Part shown: positions 21,316-60,552 of the stretch, one piece after another | Layout: every line of letters starts with the position of its first letter | Position numbering within the stretch: position 1 is the stretch's first letter | Assembly: GCF_024464655.1 (NCBI RefSeq) | Contig: NZ_JANHAV010000001.1 | Location: forward strand, 434,001 to 498,000 | DNA length: 64,000 nt | DNA from: Halobellus inordinatus | GTDB lineage: Archaea > Halobacteriota > Halobacteria > Halobacteriales > Haloferacaceae | Reading direction: 5' to 3' | Position numbers and translations under genes: made by a program | Notes under the pieces: model-generated | The model's database searches: none | What the model saw: the letters and a program-made list of their open reading frames with translations, nothing else | What the model was told of the DNA's origin: nothing

Positions 21316-21348
21316 ATAATGGTATGGACCCAGATATCAGAGATGATA
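21316..21348 (-). promoter_or_regulatory. Motility box and TATA box, archaellin operon
   Basis: Read on the minus strand: TATCATCTCTGATA (21348-21335), exactly 12 bp, then CCATTAT (21322-21316). The expected transcription start is near 21292, giving a leader of about 58 nt. Spacing is identical to that at cheY and arlD. Confidence 0.7.
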
Positions 21349-21572: not shown

Positions 21573-21911
21573 TTACTCCTGAGAAATCTTCCGCCAGACG
21601 TCGTCGAGTTTGTTCTTCACTTCGGGGCGCTCGGTCACCTGCACGTTGAGTTCGTTCTCGTCGAAACTGATGACTATCTCGTCGACGTCGCGGCGATAGA
21701 CGTTGGTCCGGCGGTGTTCGTCCGAGAGGACGCGGTCGTGTAGTTCGAGCAGCCCGGCACCCGTGAGCTCCTCGATGCGGCGATAACACGTCGCGATCGG
21801 GATGTCGAGCATTTCACTGAATTCCTGTGCGGAGTGAGCTTCGTCGGCAGCACGTAAGATGTCCGGGTTGTACTCGTTTCCGAGCGCTGCGAGCGTCCTG
21901 TCGGACTCCAT
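21573..21911 (-). CDS. Winged-helix transcriptional regulator at archaellin locus
   Basis: A 112-residue protein with an ArsR-like winged helix at about residues 8-75. The recognition helix is in DIPIATCYRRIEELTGAGLLELHDR, and a wing and a C-terminal dimerisation helix follow. I chose the ATG at 21911 over a GTG four codons upstream. It is transcribed toward the archaellins, 338 bp upstream of them. Its position makes it a candidate regulator of the motility genes, but no direct evidence links it to the box described here. A TATA-like GGTTAGAAC lies upstream. Confidence 0.82.
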   Translation of the reverse strand: MESDRTLAALGNEYNPDILRAADEAHSAQEFSEMLDIPIATCYRRIEELTGAGLLELHDRVLSDEHRRTNVYRRDVDEIVISFDENELNVQVTERPEVKNKLDDVWRKISQE

Positions 21912-22069
21912 AGATAGCGCCACGTTCTAACCGGACTTACCTGAATGTGACGGTCCGCGCGATTTCGAATTCGATACTGAATATCAGATTTGAGGACCGC
22001 CCGCCTCGTGGCTGTCGACTGACTTTCGCCTGCGATGGGCTTATTATCGCGCCGACGGCACCACGAGGT

Positions 22070-22621
22070 ATGGCTCCCGACCCTCCGAACGACGCGCGGC
22101 GACCCGTGCGCGACGAGGAGGGCGTCGTCAGACCCGACGAACTCGACTACACCGCCTCCGAACGGGTCGCAGAGATCTCAGACGGTCGATACGTGGTCGC
22201 GACCGACAACGACAATTCGCCGTCAGTGGACGAGAACGACGGTGAAGACGCGTCTGCGGACCTCGGAGCGCTCGCCCGCCAGCAGATGGCTCGGTACCTC
22301 TCCGAGCAGGATTCGGAGTACGGGTTCGCGCTCACCGCGGCATTCGAAGGCGAGGTCGACCACCACGAGCACTTCTCGGACGACGTCGTCGACGCCTTCG
22401 GCGAGCTAGCGTCGTGGTACGTCGAACAGATCGACACCACAGCCTCCGAAAAGCGAGCGCTCGGCATTCTCCTTCTCGCCTCCGAGACGCGCGTCTCGTA
22501 TCCGAAGAAGGCGCTCGCGTCGCTCCTGAAAGAGCACGACCTCACGCTCGATGACTCGATCGGAGACCTCGTCGGTTCACTCCCCGACGATGGCCTTCAG
22601 ATCCCGCCGGACGAAGAGTGA
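22070..22621 (+). CDS. Acidic haloarchaeal protein of unknown function, motility locus
   Basis: A 183-residue acidic protein. An N-terminal segment (EEGVVRPDELDYTASERVAEISDGRYVVAT) is separated by an Asp/Glu-rich linker from a helical C-terminal domain of about 110 residues containing EHFSDDVVDAFGELASWYVEQID. I recall similar proteins as a DUF (DUF7500-like) found beside archaellum genes, with no known activity. The start at 22070 is supported by a TATA-like TTATTATC about 28 bp upstream; the open frame begins earlier without conservation. It precedes cheY by 72 bp but does not carry the motility box itself. Confidence 0.7.
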   Translation: MAPDPPNDARRPVRDEEGVVRPDELDYTASERVAEISDGRYVVATDNDNSPSVDENDGEDASADLGALARQQMARYLSEQDSEYGFALTAAFEGEVDHHEHFSDDVVDAFGELASWYVEQIDTTASEKRALGILLLASETRVSYPKKALASLLKEHDLTLDDSIGDLVGSLPDDGLQIPPDEE

Positions 22622-22636: not shown

Positions 22637-22669
22637 TATCAGCGCTGATAATGGGGACGATGCGTTTAT
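22637..22669 (+). promoter_or_regulatory. Motility box and TATA box, cheY-cheC
   Basis: A perfect 14-bp palindrome TATCAGCGCTGATA (22637-22650) is followed by exactly 12 bp and CGTTTAT (22663-22669). The cheY ATG is 25 bp beyond the TATA, so the mRNA should be leaderless. This is the best-formed copy of the element. Confidence 0.75.
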
Positions 22670-25101: not shown

Positions 25102-25134
25102 TATCTTCGCTGATAATTTCGGGGGCACGTTTAT
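25102..25134 (+). promoter_or_regulatory. Motility box and TATA box, arlD
   Basis: TATCTTCGCTGATA (25102-25115), exactly 12 bp, then CGTTTAT (25128-25134). The transcription start should be near 25155, about 45 bp before the arlD ATG. An upstream in-frame ATG at 25133 falls inside the TATA box, so it cannot be the start of the protein. Confidence 0.72.
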
Positions 25135-58358: not shown

Positions 58359-58655
58359 CGCCGCCGACTACGCGCCGCCCCAATCAAAAGGGGTTCGGTG
58401 ACGGTTTCGGGACCGACTCCGGGCGAGTTGTGAGCTACTTCCGGAATCAGCGCTGATATTTAGAGGAATACGTTTAACCGAGTGGTTACCCGTGTCTAGG
58501 TGGGGGAAAAGAGTCTGTACCGTCGCAAAACTGGCCGGTCGGCCAGACCGACAGCGTATGCTGACGGCACAGCGACTGCTATCGCCGTACAGTATGGGGA
58601 TGAACACGCGCGTAATCGCTCTATAACAATAGGGGAATAGAGAAAGTAACCACCG
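58359..58655. other. 297-bp gap with a motility-box promoter and palindromes
   Basis: Divergent space upstream of the thioredoxin-like gene. It contains the box and TATA-like CGTTTAA at 58445-58477, a hairpin CTGGCC-GGTC-GGCCAG at 58531-58546, and a short open frame from 58492 that starts before the expected transcription start. A leader of about 155 nt would precede the downstream ATG. Confidence 0.5.
58445..58477 (+). promoter_or_regulatory. Motility-box-like element and TATA box
   Basis: AATCAGCGCTGATA (58445-58458), then 12 bp and CGTTTAA (58471-58477). The core ATCAGCGCTGAT is identical to that at cheY, and the spacing is the same. The expected transcript starts near 58500, before the gene at 58656. 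Confidence 0.6.
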
Positions 58656-59159
58656 ATGAAGTTTCCTACGGTCTCCGGGAGAGACACACAGGGGCGTCGA
58701 CTGACGCTTCCCGACGACTTGCACGGCGAGCAGACGCTCGTCGTCGTTAGCTTTCATCAACGACAACGGTCGCTCGTCAACTCGTGGCGACAGTTCGCAT
58801 CCGAGCTGTGCGAGCGGTTCGACCACTTCGGGTATTACGAGCTTACCGTCTGCGGCAAGGGCGGAATGCTCCCGCCACAATCGATGGGCGGAATGTCGCC
58901 CGCCAGCGCCCGCCAGCGCACACACGACAATACGGTCTTCCTCTCGGTCGACAAGCAGGCGTTCCGACGCCGCCTCGGGATCCTCGGCGAACAGACGATC
59001 TACGCGTTTCTGCTCGAAGACGACGACGTGGTTCGCCAGGCCGCCGGCGTACTCACGCCGAAGACCGGCGAGGCGCTGGAGTCGCTTCTTCAGTCGTATC
59101 GCGACGAGAAGCACCGCCAGCCGAACGGATCCGAGAGCGCCGGCGAGTCGTCGAGCTGA
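58656..59159 (+). CDS. Thioredoxin-fold-like protein without CxxC
   Basis: The 167-residue protein begins MKFPTVSGRDTQGRRLTLPDDLHGEQTLVVVSFHQRQRS, like AhpC/TSA-family or ATP10-like proteins, but no active-site Cys pair follows (the only early Cys residues are in ELCERF and TVCGKG). Role unknown. A Ser/Glu/Gly tail. A motility-box-like promoter lies about 180 bp upstream, so it may be coregulated with motility; that is an inference. Confidence 0.65.
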   Translation: MKFPTVSGRDTQGRRLTLPDDLHGEQTLVVVSFHQRQRSLVNSWRQFASELCERFDHFGYYELTVCGKGGMLPPQSMGGMSPASARQRTHDNTVFLSVDKQAFRRRLGILGEQTIYAFLLEDDDVVRQAAGVLTPKTGEALESLLQSYRDEKHRQPNGSESAGESSS

Positions 59160-59193: not shown

Positions 59194-60405
59194 TCAGAGC
59201 TGTAGTTCGATCGGGTGTTCGGTCAGGTTCTCGTAGCCGTCCTCGGTGACGACGACGAGATCTTCGATCCGAACGCCGCCGACTGCTGGGTCGTACAGCC
59301 CTGGCTCGATCGTGATGACGTGGCCCGGCCGCAGTTCGCCGCCGTCGGGCGAGACCCGCGGCAGCTCGTGTACGTCGAGGCCGACGCCGTGTCCCGTCGA
59401 GTGGATGAAGCCCGTTTCGGTCGTCGGGTCCGAACGGAGCGTCGGCAGGCCCGCGTCCTCGTAGACGTCGCAGGCGGCGTCGTGGACGGCTGCGCCGGTC
59501 ACGCCCGCCTCGACGGCGTCGAGAGCGGCGTCGAGCGCCTCGTGAGTCAACTCGAACCACTCGCGGACGGTCTCGGTCGGTTCGCCCTTCACGAACGTCC
59601 GCGTCATATCGGCGTGGTACTTCGTCGCCTTCGAGCGGGGGAAGATGTCGACGATGATCGGCTCGTTCGGCCGCAGCGGACCGCTCCCGCGATCGTGCGG
59701 GTCTGCGGCGTCCACGCCGCAGGCGACGATAGTCTCGTCGAGCGCGCAGCCGTGGCGGAGCAGCGTGACCTCGATCTCCTCTTTGACACGCTCGCTGGTC
59801 AGGACCGCACCGTTGTAGCGGAGGATCTGGTGGTCGCCGTCGGTCGTGTCGGCGTCTACCTCGTCCGACTGGACGATCGAGGCGTCTTCGAGCAGATCTG
59901 CTGCCGCCCGCATCGCCGCTTCGTTGGCCTGCTGGGCCGTGCGGATGTGTTCGATCTCCTCGGGCGTCTTTCGCGCGCGGATATCCGTCACGACGTCCTC
60001 GGTTTCGGGCGCGACCGCGACGCCGCGCTCGCGGAGATGGTCGGCGGGGCCGAGTGGGAACCGCTCCGGGGTGGCGACGCTGTCGACGCCGAGGTCGTCG
60101 AGCCACGCGGCGACGACGCGCGCCTTCGCCTCGCCTGCACCGTGCTCGGCGGCGAGCGCGCGGTAGTCGTAGTCGGCGAGGCGCGACACGTCGTCGGCTC
60201 GGCTCTCTTTCTTGGCGCGACCGTACTCCAGCGCAGAGACGAGCAGCGCCGTCCTCTCGGGCGTGTAGACGGTCACGAACGGGTCGGGTGCGTCGAATCC
60301 CGAGAGGTAGCGCTGCGTCGAGTCCGAGCTGTCGGCGTCGACGAGGTAGCCGTCGTGTCCGTCGGCGTCGAGATAGGCGTCGAGTTGCGAGAGATCGGGG
60401 TCCAT
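59194..60405 (-). CDS. M24 family Xaa-Pro dipeptidase/aminopeptidase
   Basis: A 403-residue pita-bread metallopeptidase. The metal ligands of M24 are visible in order: two Asp in [20 protein letters not shown], His in [12 protein letters not shown], Glu in ITIEPGLY and Glu in VRIEDLV. Creatinase-like N-terminal domain (about 1-155). Start ATG 60405. Convergent with the thioredoxin-like gene. Confidence 0.92.
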
Positions 60406-60552
60406 AGCCGTTCGGTGGGACGCGGTCGGATAAAGAACCACGCTTCAGACGTCTTTCGGCGCCGACTCGATCCTCGACCGCCCTCCCTGATCGCCCTCGT
60501 GCGCCGGGTTCGGACCACAACCGTATTACGGGCGCGCCGCGGTCGTTCGACT

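Follow-up and report, generated by a model that had tools for sequence, protein, structure and literature searches.

Why does a sequence element shared with a chemotaxis gene stand before a gene for a thioredoxin-like protein? The question is raised by a 64,000-nucleotide stretch of the Halobellus inordinatus genome (hereinafter the window; contig NZ_JANHAV010000001.1, positions 434,001 to 498,000), in which a 14-base palindrome, AATCAGCGCTGATA (58445..58458, + strand), adjoins a promoter 5′ of a gene (58656..59159, + strand) coding for a 167-residue protein to which AlphaFold2 modeling and PDB fold matches assign a thioredoxin fold without a CxxC motif. A 12-bp spacer (58459-58470) separates the palindrome from a TATA-like element, CGTTTAA (58471..58477, + strand); both elements are on the strand of the thioredoxin-fold gene, with the box directly upstream of the TATA element and facing the gene. 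Archaeal promoter geometry puts the predicted start of transcription from this distal promoter about 26 bp past the TATA element (58495..58503, + strand). A GGGGGAAA-type block (58499-58520) lies at the predicted transcript start; most Halobellus loci have retained it, and Halogeometricum shows an echo of it.

The box recurs at motility and chemotaxis genes

The original prediction described the element as a distant copy of a motility box upstream of cheY, with the same core and spacing. Our sequence comparisons confirmed AATCAGCGCTGATA-N12-CGTTTAA at 58445-58477, as well as the core and 12-bp spacing common to the cheY box; the distance between the two is 35.8 kb rather than the 31 kb given there, and 33.3 kb lie between the 58445 box and that of an ArlCE-type gene (25102). 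Across the whole 3.4-Mb Halobellus genome, the 12-bp core ATCAGCGCTGAT occurs exactly only at 22638-22649 and 58446-58457 (control pattern: 0), and ATC-N5-TGATA-N12-CGTTTA exactly at only three positions, namely cheY, the ArlCE-type gene (25133), and the 58445 site. The sites used for comparison within the window are the cheY box TATCAGCGCTGATA-N12-CGTTTA (22637..22668, + strand), the ArlCE box TATCTTCGCTGATA-N12-CGTTTA (25102..25133, + strand), and an archaellin box TATCATCTCTGATA-N12-CCATTA (21317..21348, − strand). Allowing up to two mismatches, box-N12-CGTTTA retrieved 12 matches genome-wide versus one for the reversed control pattern. Judged by the genes read downstream, the one-mismatch sites belong to a HAMP-containing transducer-like gene and cheW, and those with two mismatches include cheB, which is divergent from cheW, as well as the archaellin gene, a probable pilin, and a handful of unrelated genes. 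Hence, besides the 58445 site, every box in the genome with at most one mismatch is at a motility or chemotaxis gene. Two of the sites merit separate description: the interval between the divergent cheW and cheB (C11:607233-607282) holds an overlapping back-to-back pair of CsmR-type boxes, and a two-mismatch box (C17:347304) precedes a gene that probably codes for a type IV pilin, which agrees with the effects on pilins published for the csmR deletion.

The box matches the motif of the archaellum regulator CsmR

CsmR (HVO_1209) of Haloferax volcanii is described in a June 2026 paper (PMC13286277) as a 13-kDa winged-helix regulator of the archaellum and chemotaxis that is encoded beside the archaellin genes; its ChIP-seq motif, TATCA(N4)TGATA, adjoins the TATA box and is present in 50 of 65 peaks, and its direct targets include archaellum and chemotaxis genes. 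AATCAGCGCTGATA agrees with this motif at 9 of the 10 fixed bases. The window also codes for a predicted CsmR orthologue, a 116-residue winged-helix protein (21573..21923, − strand; HTH_20 match) located between the archaellin gene and cheY, which shares 87% identity with its positional counterpart in a Haloferax-type genome; a DUF7500 protein (21947-22621, + strand) is encoded between csmR and cheY. Since the box matches the ChIP-seq motif and the window carries the orthologue, we identify the motility box as a predicted CsmR-type site. The parallel with the H. volcanii regulon extends to the same palindrome beside the TATA element, to boxes at archaellum and chemotaxis genes in Halobellus too, and to a regulator encoded beside archaellin in both (PMC13286277). 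A point of difference is the 3′ half-site at the thioredoxin-fold gene of Haloferax, which reads TGAGA rather than TGATA, so that CsmR may bind more weakly at the Haloferax orthologue. Archaellum promoters of Methanococcus and Pyrococcus likewise have an archaellum regulator, EarA, bound upstream of the promoter elements, and the CsmR paper reports that haloarchaea have no EarA and that EarA and CsmR are unrelated (PMC13286277). In its main text, as far as searched, we did not find the thioredoxin-fold target gene named.

The box is conserved with the thioredoxin-fold gene in five genera

Of 17 Halobellus genomes, 12 proved to have an orthologue of the thioredoxin-fold gene, and the count for the family is 39 of 170 genomes, spread over 6 of 28 genera; among the named relatives are Halobellus, Halogeometricum, and Haloferax. 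(In genus g49, the genomes G190, G191, and G192 each encode a second homologue of the protein that is more distant.) All 38 orthologous loci that were scored, from Halobellus, Haloferax, Halogeometricum, and the genera g7 and g49, have a box with a TATA element upstream. At most of them the box score was reached by none of 100 shuffles, with Halogeometricum weaker (0-6 of 100), and the 12-bp spacing between box and TATA element is likewise kept at most loci, with some one-base shifts. In the alignment of the Halobellus loci, the bases of the box and its TATA element are conserved and those adjacent to them vary. The distance from box to start codon is 177-216 bp in Halobellus, about 160 bp in Haloferax, about 250 bp in Halogeometricum, 265 bp in g7, and 59 bp in g49. 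Thus, in four genera the box lies 160-265 bp from the start codon, many of the loci having a second promoter in between; in g49, the thioredoxin-fold gene has it on its own leaderless-type promoter, and we therefore take that gene, and not a hidden RNA, to be the target.

The second promoter in H. inordinatus is probably the proximal TATA-like element CTATAAC (58621..58627, + strand), which precedes the ATG of the thioredoxin-fold gene by about 34 bp. It is conserved in eight Halobellus loci (L001-L008) and absent in four (L009-L012), and an analogous conserved proximal element is seen in the Haloferax orthologues. Inspection by eye revealed no evident intrinsic terminator between the box and the gene; a hairpin-like CTGGCCGGTCGGCCAG is not followed by a T-run.

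The gene, the box, and the archaellum genes are lost together

Five of the 17 Halobellus genomes lack the thioredoxin-fold gene, and these five and no others are without an ArlCE match, a coincidence with a chance of 1 in 6188 if the absences were independent, which is only a guide as the genomes are related. The same five also lack a CsmR orthologue of at least 90% identity, which is present in all 12 archaellated Halobellus genomes and in them only. In all five, the genes for prephenate dehydrogenase and an M24 peptidase are still neighbors, 129-799 bp apart, and the interval between them contains no box above shuffle level; three of these genomes are less than 90% complete, but the kept neighbors show that the locus was sequenced. 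Matches to the pattern with no more than one mismatch number 55 in the 12 archaellated genomes versus 2 for the control, and 7 versus 3 in the five without ArlCE. In the family as a whole, all 39 carriers of the gene have ArlCE, a count to be read with the reservation, applying to all these co-occurrences, that the genomes of one genus are not independent of each other. The converse does not hold: only 6 of the 28 genera have the thioredoxin-fold gene versus 24 with ArlCE, and from its absence in most archaellated genera we conclude that it is not an essential part of the archaellum.

Other readings of the box

A short palindrome beside a generic haloarchaeal TATA element could be thought a chance likeness, the more so as short motifs recur and the window is expected to hold 1.7 core matches with two mismatches. 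That the core is unique in 3.4 Mb apart from cheY, that the reversed-pattern control is near zero, and, above all, that the box persists in five genera among diverged flanks leave this reading with a negligible share of our belief; the conservation in effect refutes it. A different regulator recognizing a similar palindrome, such as a CsmR paralogue or another winged-HTH or Lrp-type protein, might instead bind the box and keep the gene outside the motility programme, and CsmR paralogues of 33-54% identity do exist in Halobellus. Yet the gene, the box, ArlCE, and the CsmR orthologue vanish together, the paralogues persist in three of the genomes with these losses, and the other best boxes of the genome are at motility genes; we accordingly regard this second possibility as very improbable.

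Somewhat less improbable, though still unlikely, is that the box promoter drives a product of the leader, either a leaderless small protein (from a GTG near 58500 to a stop codon short of the gene) or a short regulatory RNA, and that the thioredoxin-fold gene is read from the proximal promoter only. The idea draws on three features of the leaders. In Haloferax, a 32-codon ORF with an ATG or GTG start begins at the predicted transcript start, ends three bases before the gene, and is present in 13 of 13 aligned sequences; in Halobellus L003-L008, one frame is open in six of six leaders with a pN/pS of 0.59, as low a value being reached by 7 of 1000 column shuffles for a frame that was chosen post hoc; and a GGGGGAA block is conserved at the leader start in most Halobellus loci. 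The Haloferax ORF, however, shows no coding constraint (pN/pS about 0.99 over codons 2-19), several Halobellus leaders have no in-frame start codon, L002 shifts the frame, and the leader peptides of the two genera are unrelated. Moreover, g49 has its box on the gene itself with no leader, and L009-L012 have no recognizable proximal promoter, so the box promoter should serve the gene there. A short RNA or small protein starting near 58500, which the original prediction had offered as its alternative, is thus neither needed nor established; its other proposal, that the thioredoxin-fold gene belongs to the motility regulon, gains support from the boxes elsewhere in the genome, the 38 of 38 loci in five genera, the own-promoter box of g49, the joint loss with ArlCE and CsmR, and the CsmR ChIP-seq motif.

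A predicted thioredoxin fold without conserved cysteines

The thioredoxin-fold protein belongs to no Pfam or NCBIfam family and gave no convincing sequence match in the PDB. Membership in the ATP10 family (PF05176) was considered and rejected, as a search of its own genome gave no profile match at the locus even at an E-value of 10. An earlier structure model built from 13 close sequences was poor (pLDDT 58.5); with a broader alignment of 26 sequences, the AlphaFold2 model reached a pLDDT of 81.8, and Foldseek recognized a thioredoxin fold in it. Structural alignment with VIA-align yielded a Z-score of 12.1 to 3gl3, with an rmsd of 2.8 over 127 residues; more generally, the model resembles TlpA/ResA/DsbE, Sco, and peroxiredoxin proteins (PDB: 3gl3, 4grf, 1xzo) with Z-scores of 10-12 over about 130 residues. 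Unlike these proteins, it has neither a CxxC motif nor a conserved cysteine, shares only 12-17% identity with them, and matches none of the family models. The description of the protein as a Cys-less thioredoxin-like one holds for the predicted fold and the missing CxxC motif, and fails in that two cysteines, Cys52 and Cys66, are present, neither of them conserved; among the 26 aligned members, there is no conserved CxxC or peroxidatic cysteine. Given this lack of conserved cysteines and of a CxxC motif, the protein is unlikely to act as an oxidoreductase by the usual mechanism. Purifying selection acts on the gene (pN/pS 0.21).

In Haloferax mucosum, the thioredoxin-fold gene is convergent with one for an M24 peptidase. 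HVO_1309 is the M24 peptidase of H. volcanii whose 5′ UTR is spliced and bears a bulge-helix-bulge intron (PMC7714728), and by this arrangement the H. volcanii orthologue of the thioredoxin-fold gene is probably HVO_1310 or HVO_1308. In the window, an M24 peptidase (59194-60441, − strand) is probably the orthologue of HVO_1309. A literature search by the gene numbers HVO_1310 and HVO_1308 found nothing relevant, and the portion of a transposon screen covered here (PMC5198076) has no entry recognizable as the thioredoxin-fold gene.

A predicted addition to the haloarchaeal motility regulon

Taken together, these observations point to a conserved CsmR-type operator and, with it, a gene newly predicted to belong to the haloarchaeal motility regulon: we put at about 0.88 the probability that the box is the site of a CsmR-type regulator that places the thioredoxin-fold gene under the control common to motility genes, and the motility programme very probably includes the gene. 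Under this proposal, the winged-helix regulator encoded at 21573-21923 would bind the box immediately 5′ of the TATA element of a promoter starting near 58,500, and the bound CsmR would subject the thioredoxin-fold gene to the control common to the archaellin, ArlCE, cheY, cheW/cheB, and transducer genes, with the second, box-less proximal promoter probably supplying a basal level in many species. We infer binding of CsmR at this particular site from the sequence. The position of the box suggests activation, but the published csmR deletion raised arl and che transcripts even as it abolished motility, and that paper leaves unsettled whether CsmR is an activator or a repressor (PMC13286277).

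The predicted regulation and the co-loss would be consistent with a non-redox accessory role of the protein in motility or chemotaxis. More tentatively, and at slightly less than even odds, the family could constitute an undescribed, cysteine-independent thioredoxin-fold accessory of the archaellum or of chemotaxis, confined to some archaellated Haloferacaceae and controlled by CsmR, whose deletion would change swimming. What is new here is the candidate target gene with its candidate role, the system itself being of a known kind. The proposal would connect archaeal swimming with an uncharacterized protein family by way of a regulatory site kept with the gene in five genera, 59-265 bp away from it; it would extend the CsmR regulon beyond Haloferax and offer a candidate gene that can be tested directly in H. 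volcanii, a genetically tractable species.
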